Shown here in pieces: positions 2,326 to 40,545 of a DNA stretch of 44,549 bases; position 1 is the stretch's first letter; each line of letters begins with the position of its first letter. The position numbers and the translations under genes are program-made. Under the pieces are notes generated by a model. It ran no database searches, was not told where the DNA came from, and saw nothing but the letters and a program-made list of their open reading frames with translations. Source of the stretch: a virus; the IMG/VR virus record IMGVR_UViG_3300035682_000064, positions 1 to 44,549 of that record. One strand, written 5' to 3'.

Positions 2326-3315
2326 ATGGCGATTAAAAAGAAAACATTCTCGTTAGAGGATATAAAGGGTAAATTCTCTACAAAAACAAAATACAAACCT
2401 GAAAGCTTCTATAACTGCGGTGAAGCTTTTATGGATGCTTGTGGTTTACCCGGACCTGTAATGGGGGGTATCAATATGATGTTAGGTCATTCAAATACTT
2501 CAAAAACAACAGCTATGATATTAGCGGCGGCTGATGCTCAGAAAAAAGGACATTTACCGGTGTTTATTATAACGGAAAAAAAATGGTCTTGGGAACACTC
2601 GGTTGAATTGGGGTTACAAGCGGAACAAAATGAAAATGGTGAGTGGGACGGTCATTTTATTTTTAACGATTCTTTTGAAACAATAGAACAGGCGACTGAT
2701 TTTATGAATGATATATTAGATGCTCAAGAAAAAGGTGAATTACCGTATAATGTTGCTTTTTTCTTTGATAGTATTGGTAGTATTCCCTGTCAAATGACTT
2801 TTGAAGGTAAGGGGGGGTCTATGCACAATGCTAGAGTACTATCAGAAAGAATAGGTATGGGGTTACATTCAAGAATAACAAAATCAAAAAAAGAGGATTA
2901 TCCTTATTACAATACTTTAGTTGTAATTGTACAACCTTGGGTTGAATTGCCGGACTCACCATTTGGTCAGCCTTCTATTAAACCTAAAGGCGGTGAGGCG
3001 TTATATTTGGCATCTTCTTTAGTATTTTTATTTGGTAACCAAAAAAATGCTGGAGTTAATCATATAACCGCAACTAAAAATGGTAGAACCGTATCTTATG
3101 CTGTTAGAACAAAAGTATCAATATTAAAAAATCACGTAAATGGTATTGCGTTTAAGGATGGGAAAATTATTGCGGTTCCTCAAGGATATATTGCGGATAC
3201 AAAAGAGGCGTTAGATAAATATAAAAAACAATATTCTAGTTATTGGGGTGCGATACTTAGTGGTACCGGTGAATTGATATTAGATGAAAATAGTGAAGAC
3301 GATTCTGACGATTAA
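2326..3315 (+). CDS. uvsX: UvsX-like RecA-family recombinase
   Basis: A 329-residue RecA/UvsX-type strand-exchange ATPase for recombination-dependent replication and repair. The P-loop is GHSNTSKTT at residues 54-62. As in T4 UvsX, the glycine before the lysine is replaced, here by Ser, so it departs from the bacterial RecA consensus. The Walker B strand is VAFFFD at 143-148. The region KPKGGEALYLASSLVFLF resembles the DNA-binding loop 2 area and following strand of UvsX. The C-terminus is acidic (ENSEDDSDD). The gene is 90 bases after the gp32-like gene with a structured element between, and is probably co-transcribed with it. A homing-type cassette follows directly. Confidence 0.85.
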   Translation: MAIKKKTFSLEDIKGKFSTKTKYKPESFYNCGEAFMDACGLPGPVMGGINMMLGHSNTSKTTAMILAAADAQKKGHLPVFIITEKKWSWEHSVELGLQAEQNENGEWDGHFIFNDSFETIEQATDFMNDILDAQEKGELPYNVAFFFDSIGSIPCQMTFEGKGGSMHNARVLSERIGMGLHSRITKSKKEDYPYYNTLVVIVQPWVELPDSPFGQPSIKPKGGEALYLASSLVFLFGNQKNAGVNHITATKNGRTVSYAVRTKVSILKNHVNGIAFKDGKIIAVPQGYIADTKEALDKYKKQYSSYWGAILSGTGELILDENSEDDSDD

Positions 3316-3354
3316 AAAAATTGATACTATTACTACTTTTAAGTATTTTTAAGA

Positions 3355-3362
3355 TATTTATA
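3355..3362 (+). promoter_or_regulatory. TATTTATA motif before homing cassette 1
   Basis: TATTTATA in the context GATATTTATATAATATGGGA, with only 4 bases between motif and ATG. The same 20 bases occur before cassette 2 (38972-38991). If used as a -10-like element, the transcript would begin at or very near the start codon. Confidence 0.5.
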
Positions 3363-3366
3363 TAAT

Positions 3367-3519
3367 ATGGGAAGACATAAGATTGATGAAGATAAAAAAA
3401 AGGTAAAAGTTTCGGTTGCGATTGACCCTGAATTACCTCAATACTTTAAGGATAAATCTATAAATTTATCTTCCCTTGTTAATAAATTATTAAAAGAATA
3501 TATTAAAAATGGAAACTAA
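3367..3519 (+). CDS. Small ribbon-helix-helix protein, cassette 1
   Basis: A 50-residue protein starting MGRHKIDEDKKK. It has the layout of a ribbon-helix-helix (CopG/Arc type) DNA-binding protein: a basic N-terminus, a short alternating strand (VKVSVAID, about 13-20), a helix (PELPQYFKDK), a turn (SINLSS) and a second helix (LVNKLLKEYI). Such proteins bind operators as dimers. It overlaps the HNH gene by 11 bases (ATGGAAACTAA), which implies coupled translation. A close relative, also overlapping an HNH gene, lies at 38986-39147. Role is inferred: it may repress the cassette or help the nuclease find its target. Confidence 0.75.
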   Translation: MGRHKIDEDKKKVKVSVAIDPELPQYFKDKSINLSSLVNKLLKEYIKNGN

Positions 3520-4069
3520 AGTTTGTAGTAAATGTAATGTTGAAAAACAAATAACCGATTTTTATAAAAAAAATAATTATTGTAAAATTTGTCATTTAGA
3601 AAAAAAACAAAATTGGAGAAAAAATAATCCCGAAGAATATAAAAAACAAAACAAAAATTATTGGGAGAGAACTAAAGATGTTCAATCACAAAAAAAGAAA
3701 GTTTGGATTAAAAATAATCGGGAAAAGTATAATAGTTATTGGACAAATAGAAAAAATATAGACCCAGAATTCAAACTACTAATGAATATGAGGTCTAGAT
3801 TATGTGGTTATTTAAAGAAACTTAACATAACCAAAACTAACAAAACTTTTGATATTGTGGGTTGTTCTCCCCAATTTTTAAAAGAACATTTAGAAACCCA
3901 ATTTACTGATGGTATGAGTTGGGATAACAGGAGTGAGTGGCATATTGACCACATCATTCCATTATCATCGGCAAAAACAGAAGACGAACTTTATAAGTTG
4001 TGTCATTATGAAAATCTTCAACCATTATGGGCTGAGGATAATTTGAAAAAGAGTAACAAAATTTTATAG
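3509..4069 (+). CDS. HNH endonuclease, cassette 1 (homing type)
   Basis: A 186-residue free-standing HNH nuclease. The N-terminus has a CxxC pair (C6, C9) and a second pair (C25, C28), likely a zinc finger. A long Lys/Asn-rich middle (30-115) is probably DNA-contacting. The C-terminal HNH core has HIDH at 145-148, then the Asn of NLQPLW (169) and a final Asn/Lys-rich helix. Known for the family: such enzymes cut DNA at a target locus and spread by homing. It sits between uvsX and the exonuclease gene, breaking up a replication operon, and is about as long as the HNH of cassette 2 (185 aa) with closely similar termini. Confidence 0.85.
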   Translation: METKVCSKCNVEKQITDFYKKNNYCKICHLEKKQNWRKNNPEEYKKQNKNYWERTKDVQSQKKKVWIKNNREKYNSYWTNRKNIDPEFKLLMNMRSRLCGYLKKLNITKTNKTFDIVGCSPQFLKEHLETQFTDGMSWDNRSEWHIDHIIPLSSAKTEDELYKLCHYENLQPLWAEDNLKKSNKIL

Positions 4070-4090: not shown

Positions 4091-5092
4091 GTGACTAAAA
4101 CACTATTAGTGGATGGAAACAATCTACTTAAGATTGGGTTTTGCGGGGTTAAAGACTTTTACCACAACGGAAAACACATAGGAGGATTATGGCATTTTAT
4201 CAATACAATTAGACGTTTTATAGACGAACAAAATTTTGATAAGGTTGTTGTTATGTGGGATGGTGATAATAATTCATCCGCCCGAAAACTTATTTACCCC
4301 CAATATAAAGAAAAACGACGTATAACCGAAGATTTCAAAGATGAATCTTTTGAAGAACAGAAAGAGAGAATCAAACAATACTTGGAGGAATGTTATATAA
4401 GACAAATCAACGTAGATAATAACGAAGGCGACGATTTGATTGCTTACTACTGCCAAATCTCGGAAAACGAACAAAAGACTATCTATTCGGGGGATAAAGA
4501 CCTTACCCAACTTATATCGGATAAGGTATCGGTATATTATCCAAGAACCAAAGAGACTTATCATTTAGGAAGTAAAATCAAATGTGATTTTTACGAATTT
4601 CCCCACGAAAACATCAGGACTTATAAAATTCTATCTGGAGATAAATCGGACAATATTGACGGTATTTCAGGGTTGGGTGAGAAAACTCTTATAAAGTTTT
4701 TTCCTGAGCTACTTGAAAAAACCGTTTCTATTACCGATATTTTAGAAAAGGCTGAAATTCTACTAAAGGAAAACAAGGGTAATAAGACATTACAAAATCT
4801 TTTATCCGGAAAAACTAAAAGTGGTGTGTATGGTGATGAGTTTTTTGTTATTAACGAAAAAATTATAAATTTATCAAACCCATTAATTACTGATGGTGCT
4901 AAAGAACTTGTTGAATTATATTATAAAGAAACCTTAGACCCTGATGGAAGGGGTCATAGGGGACTTATTAAAATGATGATGGAAGATGGGTTTTTTAAGT
5001 ATCTACCGAAGGGGGATGACGCGTGGGTTAATTTTGTTAGACCCTTTTTAAAACTAACAAGAAAAGAAAAAAGAAATTATAAAAACAATTAA
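4091..5092 (+). CDS. rnh: FEN-family 5'-3' exonuclease (T4 RNase H-like)
   Basis: A 333-residue flap endonuclease/5' exonuclease, in T4 the enzyme that removes RNA primers. It acts on lagging-strand flaps beside the ssDNA-binding protein. Metal-binding acidic clusters are visible in order: LLVDGNN (D8), MWDGD (D57), EGDD (112-115), SGDKD (133-137) and SGDKSDNIDG (182-191). The last lies at the helix-3-turn-helix that binds the DNA backbone. The residue spacing is that of the PIN/FEN fold. The start is a GTG at 4091, 21 bases after the HNH stop; there is no better in-frame ATG upstream. T4 Rnh is 305 residues, so the length fits. The C-terminal 100 residues carry no motif I can name. Confidence 0.85.
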   Translation: MTKTLLVDGNNLLKIGFCGVKDFYHNGKHIGGLWHFINTIRRFIDEQNFDKVVVMWDGDNNSSARKLIYPQYKEKRRITEDFKDESFEEQKERIKQYLEECYIRQINVDNNEGDDLIAYYCQISENEQKTIYSGDKDLTQLISDKVSVYYPRTKETYHLGSKIKCDFYEFPHENIRTYKILSGDKSDNIDGISGLGEKTLIKFFPELLEKTVSITDILEKAEILLKENKGNKTLQNLLSGKTKSGVYGDEFFVINEKIINLSNPLITDGAKELVELYYKETLDPDGRGHRGLIKMMMEDGFFKYLPKGDDAWVNFVRPFLKLTRKEKRNYKNN

Positions 5093-26262: not shown

Positions 26263-29200
26263 ATGGCTTGTAATATATTATATAATACTAGTATAACCGG
26301 AGATTGTGCTAATATTAACTCAGGGTCATTTACCATTAACATTAGTGGTACGGGTCCTTATTCCATTCAATGGGTGTCACCCTTCACCGGAACGACTTCT
26401 TTAGGTTTGAGTGCCACAACATATTCACGAACAAGTTTATCGGCAACAACTTATACTTTTAACATTATTGATAGTTGTAGTCCTAATACAATAGTACCTG
26501 TAAATATTTATATTTCTAGCGGGACTAGTGTTTCTATAACAAATTTTAGTAATACAATATGTGGTGGAAATAATGGTTCTTTAACGGCATCGACAAGTAA
26601 TATATATGGAACACCAACTTTTAGTTTATATAATAATACAGGGGGGTTTGTTTCTTCAGGTGCGTCATATACTAATACATTTGTATTCACTAGTTTATCC
26701 TCAGGAACTTACTATGTGATTGCTAATGATGGTGGTGGTTGTGTGGGGAAATCAGAGACGTGTATCATTAAAGAATCGAATCCAATTGATTATGATTTTT
26801 ATATTGTGGATGATGCGGGTTGTAAAGTTAATTCAGGTAAAATGTTTATTTCAGGATTAACAGGAACGCCTCCTTACACTTATTTATGGTCAAATGGTAG
26901 TATTACAAATTCTATTTCAGATTTATCAACAGGTGTTTATAGTGTTACAGTTACTGATAATACAGGTTGTAGCGTTAGTAAAAGTGGTTTTGTTGGTGAA
27001 GTAACGCCTGTTGGGTTTGGTGTTGAATATTTAAAACAACCAACGTGTTTTAGTGGTGACGGTGAGGTTACTATTGTTGTGACTGATGGTACTCCACCAT
27101 TTTATTATTTAGGTTCAAATGGTGTTACAAATGTCACATTTGATAGGACTGTTACTTTTAGTGGGTTAAGTGCCGGTCTTTTTACTATTCAAGTAACGGA
27201 TGCGGGATTATGTAATTTTATATCCTCAGTTACTTTACAAGTTCCGATGGGAATCTCGTCAGTTTCAGTTGAAACTAAAAATTCAAAATGTAATGATTTG
27301 ACAGGTCAAATAGGTCCTATCCATGTTTTTGGTGGGGTTATACCTTATACTTATACTTTAACGGATTTTGATGGTAATATAATAAGTCAAACATCTAATA
27401 GTGGTACTTGGACTTTTAATAATTTATCTTCAGGTACTTACTTATTAACTGTTTCTGATTCAGGTACTGAGTCTTGTGTATTTATGGATTCGTATACGGT
27501 TAATAATGATGTGTTATATGATTTAACCGTTACTACAACAGGAACTACTTGTGATGGTAATGATGGGGTTGTAACGTTAGACATTACATCGGGAGGAACA
27601 CCGCCTTACTTATATAAAATTGATGGTAAATCAATTAAAACTTCATTAACTTCTTATACTTTTAATAATTTAGTTTCGGGTAATTATGTTGCGAGTGTTA
27701 CCGATGCGTTATATTGTTACCAATCAACACCATTTACTATAGATGAGTCGAACACTATAGATTTTCATTTATTAAGTCAAAATGCGATAAATGATGATGG
27801 GATTATAACTGCTTACATAACTAATGGAACACCACCATTTACGTTATATTTTAATGGTGATACTGTTGGAACTACAGTTATGTCTATACCTGATTTACCT
27901 ATTGGTGATTATTCGGTTAGGATAGTTGATAGTTCGGGATGTTCTAAAACAAAAAATAATAAAATCGGAGGGTATCGACAAAGAGGTTCTATTGGGTCTT
28001 ACAATGTTTGTAGTGGTACGTTAGATAAAAGTATTGTTCTCAATTCTAACATTAGACAATTTTTTTATGAAGGGTATAATGAGTTAATATTGACAGAACC
28101 AACATATTCAAATTGTATTTTAACAGGGGCTACGTTTTCTGCGACAACAACTATTGGTGATTGTGTTAAAACTGAATTATTTTATCATAGTACAACAATA
28201 ACGGATTATCCATCTGATGAGGATTGGTTTTTAGTTATAACTTCATTAATTGAATCCTGTCCTCAAATTGGTTCCGGTAATGTTTTAATTAATTCTTTAA
28301 CTAATACTATTACTGTTACAACAAATTGTGATTTAGAATCTTTACATAATTCAAATGTTTTAGTTGAGTTAAGAATTCATTATGAGATTGCTTGTGTTTG
28401 TGCTTTACCAACACCAACACCAACAATGACACCAACTCATACTCCGACTCCAACAATGACTCAAACGCCAGGAGCATCACCATCTGTGACGCCAACACAT
28501 ACTCCGACTCAAACACCGACACATACACCTACAATGACTCAAACTCCAACGAGTACAATGACTCCAACACCAACACCGACATCTAAAAAAACATATTATG
28601 CGTATGTTATATGTGATGCGAGACCAAATTTAACTACTTCAGTGATTCAACCAATACCGGCAATAGTTGGTAATATGGTTAATGATGTTATTTTAGATTT
28701 AAATAATAATATTTGTTGGAGATTAGTTGAAATTAGTGATAATGAGAATCATTTAATTAGTACTTATGGTGGAACTACCTATACTAATAATTATTTTACA
28801 AATGTTTATGGTGAAATATTCTCAAGTCAGAACACTAAAAATCCTTGTGACGATTGTAAAGAAGTTATAAAATCATTACCAGTCCCGGTTAAAAGTGATT
28901 GTCCAACAAACTTAAGAAATTGGAGTGATTGTCCTAAAGCTGATGTTATAGGTATTATTTATGTTAATGATACAATAATTTATTCATTTGATTATGACTT
29001 TGATGTTAGTTTATATTTAGATACTTTACCAACAAATAATGGTGATTATGTTAATATAGTTTTAACAACATCAAGTAGTGATACTATTGTTACGTTAAAT
29101 GTTTCATATAATGATGGTGTAACATATTCTCAAACAAGTAATACAGTAATTAATTTTGGTTATTTTGTTAAATGTGATGCAAAATCACAACCTGATTCTA

Positions 29201-30315: not shown

Positions 30316-32736
30316 TTAAAAATCAAATTTTACTAAAAACTGTTGAATTCCTTGTCTAAGGACAGGAGATTGTAGCTTTGATACAATCATAAGATTCATT
30401 TGGTCATCGTAAAGACCAATTTCTGAAATATATGGTGTAACACCTTGAGACCAACTTGGGTTGGATGAGTGTTGAAACTCGGCTTGGCCAAGATTTATTT
30501 TATATCTCATTTCATAGATGGTTGCTTGTATGTCAGTTTCTAAGGAACCGTAAAAATAATATTCGTCACCAAAATTAAGAGTTTGTCCTGTTTGTCCTAT
30601 TGATGGTAATGAAATGAAATTGTTTAAATTATATTTGTTAGTTTCTGATGTGTCATATAAAGTTTTAGTGATAACGAATGTATTACCGGTAAGACCTGAT
30701 TGAGTAATATAACTATTTACGGTTGTCGCACTTAATTGATTTGTAAAATTAATTAATCTCCATTTATTTGAGTCAGGTCTATCACCATTTTCAACAATTT
30801 GGCAGATTATTTGAAATTTGTTTGCAACATAACCATTAACTAGTGAATTATTTGTTATTTGTTTTAAACAATTAAATCCACCACCAAAAGTGATTGCAAC
30901 ATCTTGTTGTCCTGCAACACCACAATTAACATTTGGTCCTAATATTGTTGAGTAATAATTACAATGTAATGAATTTGTTGCTCCTGATGATGAGTTTGTT
31001 AATAAATAACTAACATACATCGTTTGGTTAGTTCCTGATAGTACCCCTAAACCAGAAGAATCATTAACTACAGTACAACTATTTGGTGTTATTAGAGATG
31101 TTGTGGCTGATGGTAAAGTCCAGTTACGATTTGATTTATAAGATAATGCGGCGATTAATTCCTCATCATCGATTACGATTATTTTTTGGTCGGGAAACAC
31201 TTTACCAACTCTGTTAGGTTGTCCATTAACACTATTTGGGTGAGTGTCCCATAACATATAATAACGAATACCTGGTGTATTCATATCTGTGTTTTTAGTG
31301 GATTTGATATAGTGAGTTTTAAACACATTGATTGGTACCTCGTCTTCAGGTGGGAAAACATAGAATGTTTCACCGTGACAGCACTCAGGGTTTTTATGCC
31401 ACATTAACCAAGGTAAGTGTAATTTAAAATTTCTTGCGTCTCCTGTTACATCTTCAGCATTTGTTCCGGTAATCGGTTGCTCGAGTGCAAATTTTTCACC
31501 ATAGAAAAAATCAATCGTGTTATTTGTATAATGAATGATAGCTATTGATTTTTGTTCTTCCGGAGTAACAACAATTTTTTTATTAAATGAATTATAATAA
31601 TAAACAGAATCTTCAACATTCATATCTTTATCAACAAATGTTTGACCGCTACTTGACATATATCCTAAGTATTCTTTAGTACCAATATATGATTTAGAAT
31701 TAAAATGTGTGTAATCTTGAGATATTGTTGGAATTAATCCTGCGGGGTTTTCAGACCAAGGAATGTTCATATTCCAAACTTTAACATCAAATTGGTCTGT
31801 ATCACAAATAGATTCAAAATTAATCACATCAGTGTTCCAATGTTGGGTTGGTGTTATACTATCGTATAATGAAGTCATATTAGGTGGATACACTAATGTT
31901 CTAACATAAGTACAAGCGGACGTTATGTAAGTGTAGTTAGGTGTTACTCTATCTAAAGTTATTACATTTAAACAAATATCAACAATTTTATATGTTAAGA
32001 TATTGTGACAACTATTAACATTTACAAAGGTGTTAATAACAGGTGTTGGAGTACAACCTGTTGGGGTTGTTAGACAACAAGTTGATGATGGTGTTGGTGT
32101 TGGGTATGGTGGCATACAAGCATCATATGATGGTGTAACCGTTGGTGTTGGTGTGGGTGTTGGTGATGAAGGTATGTTAGTTCCACAATAACTAGTATTA
32201 CCATCAAAATAAATTGTGATTAAATCTCCTTTTGATGGTAATCTAACAATATTGGTGTTACAACCTGAATAAATTATTTTGATTTGTGTTCCACCGGTGA
32301 ATGTTGAAATATCGACAACATAGTTAGAATTGATAACGTAATTAGTGTTAGTGTTTGCACTCCAACTTGAAGGTGGTGATGTTGTATCTCCACTAAAAAA
32401 ACCTCTAATTGATGCTCTATTATATATTGGAGAAACCGCAGGGTCTGAGAATGGGATACCATAAGTACTATTGTTATTTTGATTAACATAAATAGGGTAT
32501 TTAACATTCTGTTTATTAGTTTGACCTTGAGCAGAATTTTGTGAATTAAAATTCGGTTCTAATATATTATTATAAGATTGATTGTAAGGGGCACCACTTA
32601 AGGTGTTGTAAGAAATTTCACTATCTCCAATTTGAAAATAGGAGATGTTAAAATTACCTTCAGATAGTTTTTGTCTAGCTGTGTCGGTTAATCTTGTGTT
32701 AATTAGTGCTGATGTGTTTTTAACTATATATGCCAT
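30316..32736 (-). CDS. Tail collar/fibre-type structural protein, 806 aa
   Basis: An 806-residue fibre-type protein. The N-terminus (ALINTRLTDTARQKLSEGNF, then FQIGDSEI) has the form of tail-fibre or collar N-terminal domains, in which a 'GD' turn follows a helix (LTDTARQKL). Residues about 190-225 are a short Thr-Pro linker region (PTPTPTPTVTPS, PTPTPSS). The C-terminus (YISEIGLYDDQMNLMIVSKL ... PVLRQGIQQF) matches the EIGLYD...PI-type collar motif of phage tail proteins. The start is preceded by a TATTTATA motif with four bases between. It has no enzyme motif. It is probably a virion fibre or a baseplate-attached collar. Confidence 0.65.
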   Translation of the reverse strand: MAYIVKNTSALINTRLTDTARQKLSEGNFNISYFQIGDSEISYNTLSGAPYNQSYNNILEPNFNSQNSAQGQTNKQNVKYPIYVNQNNNSTYGIPFSDPAVSPIYNRASIRGFFSGDTTSPPSSWSANTNTNYVINSNYVVDISTFTGGTQIKIIYSGCNTNIVRLPSKGDLITIYFDGNTSYCGTNIPSSPTPTPTPTVTPSYDACMPPYPTPTPSSTCCLTTPTGCTPTPVINTFVNVNSCHNILTYKIVDICLNVITLDRVTPNYTYITSACTYVRTLVYPPNMTSLYDSITPTQHWNTDVINFESICDTDQFDVKVWNMNIPWSENPAGLIPTISQDYTHFNSKSYIGTKEYLGYMSSSGQTFVDKDMNVEDSVYYYNSFNKKIVVTPEEQKSIAIIHYTNNTIDFFYGEKFALEQPITGTNAEDVTGDARNFKLHLPWLMWHKNPECCHGETFYVFPPEDEVPINVFKTHYIKSTKNTDMNTPGIRYYMLWDTHPNSVNGQPNRVGKVFPDQKIIVIDDEELIAALSYKSNRNWTLPSATTSLITPNSCTVVNDSSGLGVLSGTNQTMYVSYLLTNSSSGATNSLHCNYYSTILGPNVNCGVAGQQDVAITFGGGFNCLKQITNNSLVNGYVANKFQIICQIVENGDRPDSNKWRLINFTNQLSATTVNSYITQSGLTGNTFVITKTLYDTSETNKYNLNNFISLPSIGQTGQTLNFGDEYYFYGSLETDIQATIYEMRYKINLGQAEFQHSSNPSWSQGVTPYISEIGLYDDQMNLMIVSKLQSPVLRQGIQQFLVKFDF

Positions 32737-36214: not shown

Positions 36215-37726
36215 TTAAGGACAGTATAACCAATTAGTACCATTAATGTGTATGTTAAAATAAAGTGGTGAATTATCGGTTATTGTTATTGTTGCTGGAT
36301 TAGTCGGACCACAGTACCCCGTGTATGTTGCGTTAACAGCTTGTCCTGGTACAACGGTACCTTGACCAATACCGAATGTGATTGAGTTTCTAACATATGT
36401 GGCTCCTTGTTCTGTGATATAAAAATTATAAGTTTCTCCCGAACATAATGAATTAATAAAGTGTGGTGTTATCACTGAAGATGTTGTGTAATGTCCAAAT
36501 AATGGTGTTCCAAATAATGATGAACCACCTAAAGTACTATAACAACTAATAGGTTCTGATGATTTTTTAAAATAAATGTAAATACCATATCCTGCTGGTG
36601 GAATAACGTTTATGTCTTTAGTTAAATAAGCATAAACTGATGGTAATTGATTAGGGAACGATGGGTTACATAAAGAACAATTAAGTTGTGTTGTACTTGG
36701 AGTCATCGTCATAGTCATTGTTGGTGTATGTGTCGGAGTTTGTGTTGGTGTGTGACTTGGTGATGCTCCCGGTGTTCCGGTCGGTGTGTGTGTTGGAGTT
36801 CTAGTCATTGTTGGTGTTTGGGTAGGTGTTGAAGTATGTGTTGGTGTTGGGGTTGGAACAATTGCTGATTGGCAATATATACAAGCACCGTCTTCATATG
36901 AAAAACCGTAAGGACCAGTAGTTATGTTAATTGTGTTAATATTTCCGTGGTCATAATCCATACCAAGGTAAGATATACATCTTGTTTCGGTCACACCGTT
37001 GTTATTAACAGTTGCCCCTAAAACAATATATAAATCAAATTCAAATCCTGTTGGGGTTCCGGTTACATCAGTACAATAGTAAAAATCGCCATTATAACAA
37101 TCTTGAAACTTCAATACTCCCGGACAAATAATTTGACCTGTGATTGCGGAATAACTACCAAATCCATCAATCAAACAATTTCTAGATATTAATGGTGAGT
37201 TAAAAGGTAATTTAGACCATATATTGTTTTCGTCATACATAGTTGGTGTTACTGTTGGTGTTGGTGTTGGTGTCGGAGTATATGTGTAACCACTAGCATC
37301 AATACCGATTATTGAACAATAGTTTGTTGAACTTGGTGTAACCGTAGGTGTTGGAGTTACGCTAGCACTTGGTGTCGGAGTTGGTGTTGGGATAAATTCA
37401 CAATCAAAGATTGCTGTAAAATCTAAAACATCACAATTTTGAGTTGGTGTTGGTGTAGGTGTTAAACATATACCACTAAAGACATAGGATGTTGATAAGT
37501 CGGGACAGATACTTGTGGATGGATACTTACCACTTAAATAACAAGTACCTCCAAGAATATTAGATAAACACCATTCACTAGTTGTCCCCGTTGTATGATA
37601 TATAGTCCAACCACTGGTTTGACCCGTCCAATATGTGTAACCATTATAGGTACCACCTGTTATGTAGTTATCGTCGGCACCTACTATTCCGGTATTATTT
37701 ACACAATATGTTGAATTACAAGCCAT
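36215..37726 (-). CDS. Multi-linker Thr-Pro fibre protein, 503 aa
   Basis: A 503-residue protein built from Cys-containing modules joined by four Thr-Pro-rich linkers: near residues 88-96, 112-132, 149-164 and 290-345 (the last the longest, with [20 protein letters not shown]). This beads-on-a-string form and the start MACN are shared with the 1137-aa fibre. It has a beta-rich C-terminal domain of about 155 residues and no signal peptide or enzyme motif. It lies between the 80-aa module gene (one base gap) and the DUF285-like gene (three bases), so all three are one operon. Likely a fibre or a flexible adhesin; exact role unknown. Confidence 0.65.
   Translation of the reverse strand: MACNSTYCVNNTGIVGADDNYITGGTYNGYTYWTGQTSGWTIYHTTGTTSEWCLSNILGGTCYLSGKYPSTSICPDLSTSYVFSGICLTPTPTPTQNCDVLDFTAIFDCEFIPTPTPTPSASVTPTPTVTPSSTNYCSIIGIDASGYTYTPTPTPTPTVTPTMYDENNIWSKLPFNSPLISRNCLIDGFGSYSAITGQIICPGVLKFQDCYNGDFYYCTDVTGTPTGFEFDLYIVLGATVNNNGVTETRCISYLGMDYDHGNINTINITTGPYGFSYEDGACIYCQSAIVPTPTPTHTSTPTQTPTMTRTPTHTPTGTPGASPSHTPTQTPTHTPTMTMTMTPSTTQLNCSLCNPSFPNQLPSVYAYLTKDINVIPPAGYGIYIYFKKSSEPISCYSTLGGSSLFGTPLFGHYTTSSVITPHFINSLCSGETYNFYITEQGATYVRNSITFGIGQGTVVPGQAVNATYTGYCGPTNPATITITDNSPLYFNIHINGTNWLYCP
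36700..36860 (-). repeat. Thr-Pro linker repeat tract (minus-strand copy)
   Basis: A low-complexity tract encoding Thr-Pro repeats in the 503-aa gene. Shorter tracts of the same kind lie near 37240-37280, 37330-37395 and 37436-37465, and in the 806-aa gene near 32085-32165. It is inverted relative to the + strand tract at 28405-28590. Confidence 0.75.
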
Positions 37727-37727
37727 A

Positions 37728-37970
37728 TTAGATTACTATATTTGAGATTGAGGTACAACCATTATTATCAACAACTTTTAAATTAAATGATATCTGACCT
37801 TCCATAATTGAAGGAACCTGAAAATCGTAAGGTAACGATGATGATGGTATTGTGTTAATATATACACAAGTAACATTTAATGAATCACATAGATAAACAT
37901 TAAAGGGTGTTGCTCCGGATATATTATTGATATTAATATTTGTTGGCATTTGGTTAAAAGTTATTATCAT
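37728..37970 (-). CDS. Small Cys-containing module protein, 80 aa
   Basis: An 80-residue protein that matches the first 75 residues of the 416-aa protein in layout: I-x-x-I-(S/T)-G-x-(T/Y)-P-(F/Y)-N-(V/I)-Y-(L/V)-C, then a second Cys about eight residues on, and a late G-C (NNGC / SDGC). It has no signal peptide. It is the first gene of the minus-strand block, one base before the 503-aa gene. It is probably a small virion module or fibre-attachment unit; function is inferred only from the shared fold-like pattern. Confidence 0.6.
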   Translation of the reverse strand: MIITFNQMPTNININNISGATPFNVYLCDSLNVTCVYINTIPSSSLPYDFQVPSIMEGQISFNLKVVDNNGCTSISNIVI

Positions 37971-37975
37971 AAATA
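37968..37975 (-). promoter_or_regulatory. TATTTATG motif overlapping the start of the 80-aa gene
   Basis: On the minus strand the motif reads TATTTATG, and its ATG is the start codon. It is a near match to TATTTATA, but because it overlaps the start it is weaker evidence than the others. Confidence 0.25.
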
Positions 37976-38000
37976 TAGTAGGATTAAAAAACTAATAAAG

Positions 38001-38032
38001 TTTTGATAATAATAATTTTATTCTTATCTTTG
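38001..38032 (+). promoter_or_regulatory. Bacteroidetes-type promoter for the primase gene
   Basis: TTTTG (38001-38005), 19 bases, TATCTTTG (38025-38032). TATCTTTG is an exact TAnnTTTG. Only five bases (CCCCT) separate it from the ATG at 38038, so the mRNA probably starts at or near the start codon. It faces away from the minus-strand block, so the 67-base gap holds a divergent pair of transcription starts. Confidence 0.75.
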
Positions 38033-38037
38033 CCCCT

Positions 38038-38937
38038 ATGTCAGACGATGCGGAAATATTATTAGAGATACTACACGAAATTTTGGGTGATGAGAAACTT
38101 CATTACGAATCGAAGGGTCAAATATCTTTTGACTGTCCGATATGTGATGAGGACCAACACAAAGGAAATATGGAGGTAAATTATTTTGACCACGTATTTA
38201 AGTGTTGGAGTTGTGGTGATGAGAATAATACCAAAGGACCTCTTGGAAAACTTATAGATAATTTTGGTAACAAGAAACAAAAAAAAATCTACAATCTACT
38301 CCAACCTGAGAATCACAAACCAAAAGAGAAACGAGTTGATAAACTAAAACTACCTGAGGGATTCACAAAATTCAAGGATAGTAGTTTGGTTTATCCAGTT
38401 CGTCGTCAGGCGTATAACTATTTAACTCAACGAGGAATAACCGATAAGATTATTGAAAAGTATGGTATTGGGTTCTGTGATAAAGGTGCGTTCTCTGGTA
38501 GGATAATTATACCCTCCTATGATATAAAGGATGAGTTAAACTATTTCATTGCTCGAAGTTGGGACCCAAATAGCCGAGCTAAGTACAAGAATCCGGAAGC
38601 AGCTAAAGATGAGATAATCTTCTTTGAGAGTACAATCAATTGGAATGCTGACATCCATCTTTGTGAGGGAGCGTTTGATGCTATCTTTCTACCTAATAGT
38701 ATTTCTATGTTGGGAAAACATATGTCTGAGTTATTACTTAATACACTGTATGAGAAGGCGAATGGTAATATAATTATTTGTTTGGATAGTGACGCCTTCC
38801 AAGATGCTATTAAATTATACCATAATTTAAATGGGGGTAGATTATATGGTAAAGTAAAATTAATAAAATTAACTGGTGATGCTGATGTTGCCGATTTAAG
38901 GGGAAACATTAGTGATTACTTTTATACAATGAAATAA
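38038..38937 (+). CDS. 61: gp61/DnaG-type DNA primase
   Basis: A 299-residue primase that lays RNA primers with the gp41-type helicase. The zinc ribbon is CPIC (C33, C36) and CWSC (C56, C59). The Toprim catalytic core has the E-x3-D pair E210 and D214 (EGAFDAIF), and the DxD of LDSD (D250, D252) that binds metal. It is somewhat shorter than T4 gp61 (342). The start follows a strong TAnnTTTG promoter by five bases, and an AT-rich hairpin at 38936-38959 follows the stop. It heads the second replication block. Confidence 0.85.
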   Translation: MSDDAEILLEILHEILGDEKLHYESKGQISFDCPICDEDQHKGNMEVNYFDHVFKCWSCGDENNTKGPLGKLIDNFGNKKQKKIYNLLQPENHKPKEKRVDKLKLPEGFTKFKDSSLVYPVRRQAYNYLTQRGITDKIIEKYGIGFCDKGAFSGRIIIPSYDIKDELNYFIARSWDPNSRAKYKNPEAAKDEIIFFESTINWNADIHLCEGAFDAIFLPNSISMLGKHMSELLLNTLYEKANGNIIICLDSDAFQDAIKLYHNLNGGRLYGKVKLIKLTGDADVADLRGNISDYFYTMK

Positions 38938-38959
38938 AGTTGTTAAAAATAACAACTTT
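38936..38959 (+). terminator. AT-rich hairpin after the primase gene
   Basis: Perfect 10-bp stem AAAGTTGTTA / TAACAACTTT (38936-38945 and 38950-38959) with an AAAA loop, overlapping the primase stop. The T tail is weak (TATATAAAA follows), so termination may be partial. It separates the primase gene from homing cassette 2. Confidence 0.5.
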
Positions 38960-38973
38960 ATATAAAACTATGA

Positions 38974-38981
38974 TATTTATA
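38974..38981 (+). promoter_or_regulatory. TATTTATA motif before homing cassette 2
   Basis: TATTTATA with four bases before the ATG at 38986. The 20 bases GATATTTATATAATATGGGA are identical to those before cassette 1. Confidence 0.5.
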
Positions 38982-38985
38982 TAAT

Positions 38986-39147
38986 ATGGGAAGAAACAAA
39001 AAAAATAACGAAGAAAAAAAACAAAGTATATCTATTGCTCTTAAACCTGAGATTTTAGAATACTACAGGAATCTTCATATTAACTTGTCTTCGTTAGTTA
39101 ATAAATTATTAGAAGATTATAAAGAAAATGGAAACAAAAGTTTGTAA
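38986..39147 (+). CDS. Small ribbon-helix-helix protein, cassette 2
   Basis: A 53-residue relative of the cassette 1 protein: MGRNKKNNEEKK, strand QSISIALK, helix PEILEYYRNL, turn HINLSS, helix LVNKLLEDYK. The INLSSLVNKLL core is identical between the two. It runs 20 bases into the HNH gene (start 39128), longer than in cassette 1 because its stop lies farther on. It has the same 20-base leader with the TATTTATA motif. Likely a cassette regulator or a DNA-binding partner of the nuclease. Confidence 0.75.
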   Translation: MGRNKKNNEEKKQSISIALKPEILEYYRNLHINLSSLVNKLLEDYKENGNKSL

Positions 39148-39685
39148 AAAGTGTGGTGTTGAAAAATTACTTTGTGATTATAATAAAGATAAGTATTCAT
39201 CTGATGGTTTGAGATACCGATGTCGGGAATGCACATCGTTAGAGTATAAAAATTTTTATTATAAAAATAGAAAAAATGAAATTCAAAGACAGGTTAATTA
39301 TCAAAAAAATAATGATGAATCTGTTAAAAAAAGTAGAAATTACCGACATCAAAAAAATTATGATAATAACATTTTGTATAAATTAAAATTTAATATTAGA
39401 AATAGGGTTAAACTTTTTATTAAAAGTGTTAATTTTGATATAAAAACTAATAACACCTATAATATTGTAGGTTGTACTCCTGAAGAATTAAAAATTTATC
39501 TTGAAGGACAATTTACCGAAGGTATGTCTTGGGATAATCATAAACACACGGGGTGGCATATAGACCATATAATACCGATATCTTCAGCTAAAACAGAAGA
39601 GGATGTTTATAAATTATGTCATTATACTAATTTACAACCATTGTGGTGTAATGAGAATTATAAAAAAGGAAAAAAAATAATATGA
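39128..39685 (+). CDS. HNH endonuclease, cassette 2 (homing type)
   Basis: A 185-residue HNH nuclease. It has the N-terminal CxxC pairs (C6/C9, C32/C35), a Lys/Asn-rich middle, HIDH at 144-147 and N168 in NLQPLW. Its ends closely match cassette 1 (METKVC.KC start; WHIDHIIP.SSAKTE...YKLCHY.NLQPLW end), while the middle has diverged. The stop is TGA, overlapping the next ATG as ATGA; it is the only TGA stop I find in the window. It sits between the primase gene and a PD-(D/E)XK nuclease gene, so this cassette too is in the replication block. Confidence 0.85.
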   Translation: METKVCKKCGVEKLLCDYNKDKYSSDGLRYRCRECTSLEYKNFYYKNRKNEIQRQVNYQKNNDESVKKSRNYRHQKNYDNNILYKLKFNIRNRVKLFIKSVNFDIKTNNTYNIVGCTPEELKIYLEGQFTEGMSWDNHKHTGWHIDHIIPISSAKTEEDVYKLCHYTNLQPLWCNENYKKGKKII

Positions 39686-40545
39686 ATAAATTAAAAAATG
39701 TTGCAACTGAAATATTAGATATTTTAGAAAAAAGACGACAAGAACTTGAACTTACATTTGTGGAGGACACACATACCTACACGATGAAAAACGCCAAAGG
39801 TGAATTAAAAAGTGATTGGCCTTCGGTAAGTAAAGTAATGAAGTCATTTTACACAGAATTTGATTCTGAAGGGATATCTTTAAAGAAGGCGAATGGAGAC
39901 CCCGAAGTCCAACAACAATTATTGGCCGAATGGAAAGCCGCTGCCGACTATTCAATAAATGTGGGAAGTAGAACTCACTTTTTATTGGAAAAAAAATCTT
40001 TAGAGATGTTTGAGTTGGATAAGGAAGTTAGACAACCTGAATTTGAGTGTAATTTTGAACAGATATTACGTAGTGATTCTATGGTGTCTGCCGGAACTAA
40101 CTTTTTAGAAACTATGAAAGAGCGTGGAGCGTTATTGTTGGATACAGAGTTAATTCTTGGTGACTATGAGTATGGTTATACAGGTGCTCCCGATAAAATG
40201 TGGTTAATTGAGAATAAAGATAAAACTGAGATTGGTATTATCTGTACGGATTATAAAACTAATAAACCAAAAAACTTTGAGGCGAGTTATTTTACCAAAA
40301 AAATGAAATATCCTTTCGAAAAGTTAGATGATACCGCTCTTGGACATTATTCAACACAATTACCATTTTATTGTAAGCTATTATTAAAGATGTTGAAAGG
40401 GTCTAAATACGAAAACATTAAAGTATTTGGATGTATTATTGTTCTTGTTAAAGATAATGGAACATTTGAAGAATTTAGAATACCAAAATCAGTTCAACAA
40501 ACCATATTGGATATGGATATGAAAAAGTATTTGACTAAGAAATAA
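39682..40545 (+). CDS. PD-(D/E)XK exonuclease (RecB/Cas4-like)
   Basis: A 287-residue nuclease of the PD-(D/E)XK superfamily. Visible motifs: GSRTHFLLE (95-103), where His99 and Glu103 are the usual helix pair; E156 in the next strand; GAPDK (D171); and TDYKT (D190, K192), the core D...DxK. A Q-x-x-x-Y helix (STQLPFYC) follows. It would digest or trim DNA ends in replication or recombination, or attack host DNA. It overlaps the HNH stop by four bases (ATGA), so it may be translated by coupling. There is no iron-sulfur Cys cluster like that of Cas4. Confidence 0.75.
   Translation: MNKLKNVATEILDILEKRRQELELTFVEDTHTYTMKNAKGELKSDWPSVSKVMKSFYTEFDSEGISLKKANGDPEVQQQLLAEWKAAADYSINVGSRTHFLLEKKSLEMFELDKEVRQPEFECNFEQILRSDSMVSAGTNFLETMKERGALLLDTELILGDYEYGYTGAPDKMWLIENKDKTEIGIICTDYKTNKPKNFEASYFTKKMKYPFEKLDDTALGHYSTQLPFYCKLLLKMLKGSKYENIKVFGCIIVLVKDNGTFEEFRIPKSVQQTILDMDMKKYLTKK

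Follow-up and report, generated by a model that had tools for sequence, protein, structure and literature searches.

A ribbon-helix-helix gene as the likely dedicated controller of mobile homing endonuclease cassettes in large phages

Why should one phage genome carry the same small DNA-binding protein gene twice, each time overlapping the start of a nuclease gene? The locus that raises this question lies in a 44.5-kb virus record (44,549 nucleotides, the whole of which we refer to as the window) from a T4-like phage. In its baseplate wedge protein this phage most resembles Flavobacterium phage immuto and an uncultured phage of 484 kb, and contigs closely related to the window reach ~310 kb. 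The primase gene is preceded by a Bacteroidetes-type promoter, TTTTG/TATCTTTG (37968–38037), which points to a Bacteroidota host and also to a class of early promoters separate from the late-type promoter described below; the carriers of the module studied here are large phages of Bacteroidota-type bacteria. Structural-type genes of the window also contain Thr-Pro-rich coding repeats (28400–28600, 32060–32170 and 36700–37460).

A first-pass annotation of the window had described a ribbon-helix-helix (RHH) gene plus HNH nuclease gene as a unit present twice with an identical 20-base leader, and our analysis confirmed this, with the leader beginning 2 nt upstream of the starts then given, such that the whole cassettes span 3353–4069 and 38972–39685. 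All features described here lie on the plus strand. In cassette 1, the 20-nt leader GATATTTATATAATATGGGA (3353–3372) ends inside the start of a gene for a 50 aa RHH protein (3367–3519, strand class VKVSVAI), whose 3' end overlaps by 11 nt a gene for a 186 aa HNH endonuclease (3509–4069). In cassette 2, an exact second copy of the leader (38972–38991) precedes a 53 aa RHH protein (38986–39147, strand class QSISIAL) and, with a 20-nt overlap, a 185 aa HNH endonuclease (39128–39685) whose stop codon shares bases with the ATG of the following gene. These reading frames bear out the protein sizes and gene overlaps reported earlier. The two RHH proteins are 52% identical over 50 residues and the two HNH proteins 46% identical, and shuffled sequences gave a chance expectation of 0.06 leader matches at three or fewer mismatches. 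The cassettes do sit amid replication and recombination genes, as had been noted: cassette 1 lies between genes for a UvsX/RecA-like recombinase (2326–3315; PHROG 97 UvsX-like, 2.4e-12) and a 5'-3' exonuclease (4091–5092; Pfam PF02739, 1.7e-29), and cassette 2 between genes for a DNA primase (38038–38937; PHROG 47, 6.1e-40) and an exonuclease-family protein, exoPD (39682–40545; PHROG 298, 2.6e-13).

The HNH proteins match the endonuclease VII family (PHROG 1035, 5.5e-23) and score 20.7 bits against Pfam HNH, just below its cut-off. In an AlphaFold model (pLDDT 91), a zinc ribbon occupies the N terminus and the HNH core the C terminus, with five helices between them; H145, D147, H148, N169 and N178 of the core are invariant. 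Foldseek searches with this protein returned only weak HNH-domain matches (Gme HNH, Cas9 HNH) mixed with unrelated ones. The first-pass annotation had proposed that the ends of the HNH proteins are conserved and their middles diverged, with the middle serving in target recognition. The first part is true of the window pair and across 32 homologues, in which the middle varies from 51 to 166 residues, bar one outlier. In both window proteins this middle consists of repeated helical units, each of 15 residues, with autocorrelation peaks at lags of 15 and 30. A helical array of variable length between conserved ends supports the second part as well, and the repeat array, with its variable copy number, is possibly a modular DNA-recognition array.

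The RHH assignment draws on the sequence pattern and on a CcdA-family match, with scores of 24.2 and 24.9 bits against a Pfam cut-off of 22.4. This match spans only the DNA-binding part of the profile (positions 1–37 of 71), and the protein stops just past helix 2. AlphaFold, run on the monomer only, placed helices at residues 22–29 and 34–47 (pLDDT 76) and left the strand unassigned. A Foldseek search with the 50-aa monomer found no match, and PDB sequence matches resembled composition artefacts, save for a weak match to CcdA. We found no relatives of the RHH protein in bacterial or archaeal genomes and no good ones in cultured phages; at the search sensitivity used, the module seems confined to uncultivated relatives of jumbo phages.

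The shared leader had initially appeared to be a cassette-only element, an interpretation that we rejected. Several transcription units of the window begin just downstream of the motif TATTTAT[AT], and the two-box pattern ACTTT-N12–15-ATATTTAT has 54 matches in eight related records versus 2 for a reversed control pattern. The same two-box promoter precedes a sheath-like gene and a head-type gene (both assigned by eye; a 60-residue fragment of the sheath-like protein had no Pfam match), GIY-YIG genes and others, and is present in records that lack any RHH gene. The leader is, on this pattern enrichment and the genes downstream in relatives, apparently a copy of the phages' own late-type promoter, with the term "late" inferred from the genes that it precedes. 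Identity of the leader between the two cassettes is thus partly explained by its being the general promoter box of this phage group. The promoter takes the form ACTTTT-N13-ATATTTAT in cassette 1 (3335–3361) and ACTTT-N13-ATATTTAT in cassette 2 (38955–38980), and its second box ends 5 nt ahead of the RHH ATG, a spacing that would yield a near-leaderless RHH mRNA. GIY-YIG genes in two relatives (L461 and L468) have this late-type promoter and no RHH gene, indicating that the RHH controller is not universal for the homing-type nucleases of these phages.

Scanning viral contigs with the 20-nt leader identified 47 exact loci. The ATG within the leader opened an RHH gene in all 47; the RHH gene was followed by an overlapping HNH gene in 46 and by a LAGLIDADG_3 gene in the remaining one (L018). 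Broader searches with the RHH protein yielded 168 distinct copies, whose partners we classed from their sequence motifs and, for representatives, checked against Pfam. This classification gave ~130 HNH proteins, some of them truncated where a contig stops, 24 LAGLIDADG proteins and 4 proteins combining NUMOD3 with a TnsA-like PD-(D/E)XK domain; 2 further copies precede C5 methyltransferases, and a few are orphans or have a broken nuclease. Two RHH proteins equal at 50 of 50 residues (L093 and L095) nonetheless have different partners, a PD-(D/E)XK nuclease in one case and an HNH nuclease in the other.

Among 52 distinct close homologues of the HNH nuclease, an RHH gene lies directly upstream in 39 and is absent in 13, most of which begin a few bases past the uvsX stop codon and also lack the leader. 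RHH is therefore not essential to the HNH gene. One locus, L240, carries a 97% identical HNH gene at the same uvsX site with neither leader nor RHH. Taken with the range of RHH partners, these homologues indicate that the leader and the RHH gene are gained or lost together and that the nuclease is exchangeable. Had HNH genes commonly stood alone and RHH genes kept independent neighbours, the pair would not have been a unit; both departures were found in part, in the 13 HNH genes lacking RHH and in the RHH genes preceding LAGLIDADG and PD-(D/E)XK partners. What stands of the original proposal is a repeated, mobile element with a companion DNA-binding gene; what does not is the fixed pairing. 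The unit appears instead to be a promoter, an operator-like box and an RHH gene, followed by any homing endonuclease.

Several loci in this collection merit separate mention. In the HNH protein of L240 (571–1131), arginine replaces the nearly invariant H166, perhaps an early decay following loss of the control module. LAGLIDADG cassettes with a KYGIS-class RHH (L018, L133, L145, L153–L201) have a D12-class adenine methyltransferase gene downstream and a varying gene upstream, an arrangement that would fit a nuclease that either targets the D12 methylase or moves together with it. In L158, a LAGLIDADG protein carries at its N terminus a zinc-ribbon segment similar to the one in the HNH partners, which suggests domain shuffling across nuclease families.

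Comparison with cassette-less relatives, as the earlier annotation had envisaged, revealed empty sites. Of 35 relatives compared at the primase site (primases 61–96% identical), 31 are empty, with the primase stop codon touching the next ATG or overlapping it by 4 nt, and 3 have an RHH+HNH cassette. At the uvsX site, 74 relatives retain both flanking genes; 31 have RHH+HNH and 1 only HNH, the site is empty in 30, and most of the others carry methyltransferase genes. This uvsX/exonuclease junction is also a cargo hotspot for D12 or C5 DNA methyltransferase genes (L387, L396, L397, L403, L412, L124), some of the C5 genes being broken by an intein-like insertion. Cassettes were found in at least 23 upstream contexts, and module-bearing records of 177–318 kb contain 2–5 RHH copies, each ahead of a nuclease.

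At the second cassette of the window, nucleotide identity to most empty relatives is ~89% along the primase gene; precisely at the junction it falls to ~67%, and it rises again at the 3' end of exoPD. The identity profile thus describes a swap between two exoPD alleles, A and B, one of them common to the relatives with a cassette and to two without (L318 and L342), although the conversion of this flank reflects few independent events. Such a swap is the footprint expected of a free-standing homing endonuclease that targets the neighboring gene. The cassettes thereby combine a nuclease core, presence or absence at the same site, and conversion of flanking alleles, all traits of homing endonucleases, and as judged from these comparative patterns they are mobile.

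If the nuclease is exchangeable, what does the RHH protein do? RHH proteins touch DNA via residues of their beta strand. A candidate box, particular to the cassettes as the promoter is not, lies just upstream of, and overlapping, the ACTTTT promoter element, and it is kept within classes of RHH defined by these strand residues and differs between them: ACGCACTTTT for KYGIS, GTGAAACTTT for KFGIS, TATAAATAATTATACTTTT for KLAVS, TTGTGAAT..TCACACTTTT for TKVSVAL, and TTGTTA....TAACAA.TTT for xSISxA, among other classes. In cassette 1 of the window the box is TTGATACTATTACTACTTTT (3321–3340), overlapping ACTTTT. In cassette 2 it is a perfect palindrome, AAAGTTGTTA AAAA TAACAACTTT (38936–38959), whose last bases form the ACTTT element. 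Neither box recurs anywhere else in the window. Over 14 nt, box identity was 0.64 within RHH strand classes versus 0.41 between them, a difference reached by 0 of 300 permutations, compared with 0.44 versus 0.405 for the adjacent spacer and 0.47 versus 0.40, a slight class difference, for a control region far upstream.

The box follows the RHH class rather than the nuclease. Pairs with the same RHH class and different nucleases had a box identity of 0.69 (6 pairs), versus 0.48 for different classes with the same nuclease, and KYGIS-class RHH genes retain the ACGCACTTTT box with both LAGLIDADG and HNH partners. Perfect palindromes occur in cassette 2 of the window and in L040, L117 and L296; over all boxes, however, dyad symmetry is in only modest excess (90 representatives; Fisher p 0.015, Wilcoxon 0.0002), with some classes having no clear dyad. 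Because the box sits on the same stretch of DNA as the RHH gene, shared descent accounts for part of the class association, but not for the contrast with the spacer. A regulator-specific, nuclease-independent box thus appears to be present at the RHH gene's own promoter. Since it is the strand residues that contact DNA, an autoregulator would be expected to have a box specific to its strand class, as observed here.

We propose that the cassette is, quite probably, a mobile free-standing homing endonuclease element with its own promoter-operator-RHH control module and an exchangeable nuclease, in which RHH is most likely a dedicated autoregulator of the operon, its role as a repressor being inferred. 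An RHH dimer or pair of dimers would bind the box through its beta strands, block the promoter and so repress its own operon. The nuclease would thereby be kept low, except for a burst on entry into a repressor-less genome or during late copying in infection. It would then cut the cassette-less allele, probably in the neighboring gene, and repair would copy the cassette together with flanking DNA. HNH, LAGLIDADG and NUMOD3/PD-(D/E)XK nucleases would be interchangeable, with promoter, operator and RHH as the portable controller. The first-pass annotation had offered three roles for RHH, of which autorepression of the cassette fits best given the class-specific box at its own promoter, and guidance to the target and protection against over-cutting are both disfavored by the pairing of one RHH with unrelated nucleases and by the near-identical HNH of L240 that lacks RHH.

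The main rival is that RHH activates the cassette promoter. T4 MotA is an activator that acts from a similar promoter position, and the box overlaps the upstream ACTTTT element just where such an activator would sit; RHH is, moreover, always linked to the two-box promoter. Other genes use this promoter with no RHH gene, however, so activation is not required, and small RHH proteins encoded first in an operon, of the CopG or Arc type, usually repress. We consider an activator unlikely. A type II toxin-antitoxin system, in which RHH would be a CcdA/BrnA-like antitoxin neutralizing a nuclease toxin by direct contact, was raised by the CcdA score, and a small overlapping upstream gene with a class-specific operator also suits such operons. 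The similarity to CcdA and BrnA is nevertheless limited to the DNA-binding half: RHH has no C-terminal toxin-binding tail, and its partners are nucleases of three unrelated folds rather than CcdB. Nearly the same HNH persists without RHH in L240, and the empty sites and flank allele swap fit homing. We therefore rejected this reading, which we regard as improbable.

That a DNA-binding protein is encoded together with a nuclease could also mean that RHH helps the nuclease to recognize its homing site. This is highly improbable, given that the same RHH accompanies unrelated nucleases, that the nucleases have a variable recognition-like middle of their own, and that each RHH box occurs in the window solely at its own promoter. 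Finally, ordinary HNH genes, a common promoter and an unrelated small gene might have come together with no functional link, as HNH genes do occur without RHH and the promoter is general in these phages. We give this almost no credence: the linkage recurs with three nuclease folds and across many contexts, with overlapping genes and RHH-specific boxes.

How does autoregulation by RHH compare with known systems? CopG/Arc-type RHH autorepressors control replication or lysogeny genes. Our proteins resemble them in being of ~45–53 aa, consisting of RHH only, and being encoded by the operon's first gene with a box at the promoter, but stand ahead of homing endonucleases. The controller (C) proteins of restriction-modification systems are helix-turn-helix (HTH) activator-repressors that partner with a cognate methylase. 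They too are small regulators encoded before a nuclease gene, delaying or limiting its expression on entry, whereas the regulator here is an RHH protein rather than an HTH protein with a cognate-methylase partner.

The free-standing Seg/Mob homing endonucleases of T4-like phages (segA at uvsX, segF, segG) are intergenic, lie beside replication and recombination genes and convert alleles of neighboring genes, and some T4 homing genes carry their own late promoter while others are promoter-less (PMC2988022). The cassettes share with them sites by uvsX, an allele swap in the neighbor and, with some of them, possession of a late-type promoter, and the RHH-less HNH genes resemble the promoter-less T4 genes. 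They differ in that the review describes no dedicated regulator gene for Seg/Mob enzymes (PMC2988022), and in that the nucleases here are EndoVII-like HNH, LAGLIDADG or PD-(D/E)XK proteins. In the T4 td intron, I-TevI is itself the repressor (PMC2988022). As with I-TevI, a DNA-binding activity encoded in the homing operon would be expected to occlude its own late promoter; here, unlike I-TevI, a separate RHH protein would repress and the nuclease would be exchangeable. Phage homing endonuclease gene (HEG) islands, like our cassettes, place nuclease genes at recombination boundaries and shuffle their modules (PMC10448857), and the term "ribbon-helix" is absent from the text of that paper.

Parallel arrangements of a regulator with an HNH gene occur elsewhere. 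In Rhizobium phage 16-3 (L487), the XRE-type HTH gene p099 overlaps the HNH gene p100, and in Vibrio phage F89 (L488), a small HTH-like gene (by eye) precedes an HNH gene of the same broad family; other regulators may thus act in related arrangements. In megaphage LR756501 (L314), a possible RHH-like ORF precedes an HNH gene, but Pfam did not confirm it. More generally, homing endonuclease operons with a dedicated, exchangeable transcriptional controller could form a whole class of selfish elements in which a promoter-operator-regulator module takes on unrelated nucleases, built on RHH in the present jumbo phages and on different folds in other settings. About this generalization we remain evenly divided, leaning slightly against.

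Phage homing endonucleases and RHH autorepressors are already known; of a dedicated, portable RHH controller across three nuclease families, we found no description in the open-access literature searched. In the T4 model, the nuclease limits itself. Our findings suggest an interchangeable "dimmer switch", common to different selfish genes, by which their cutting is restrained. How selfish nucleases spare the genome in which they reside is a question that a separate regulator makes directly testable. The strand residues of RHH set against the operator box would offer a readable specificity code, for which the RHH-operator pairs already present in nature form a series of matches and mismatches.
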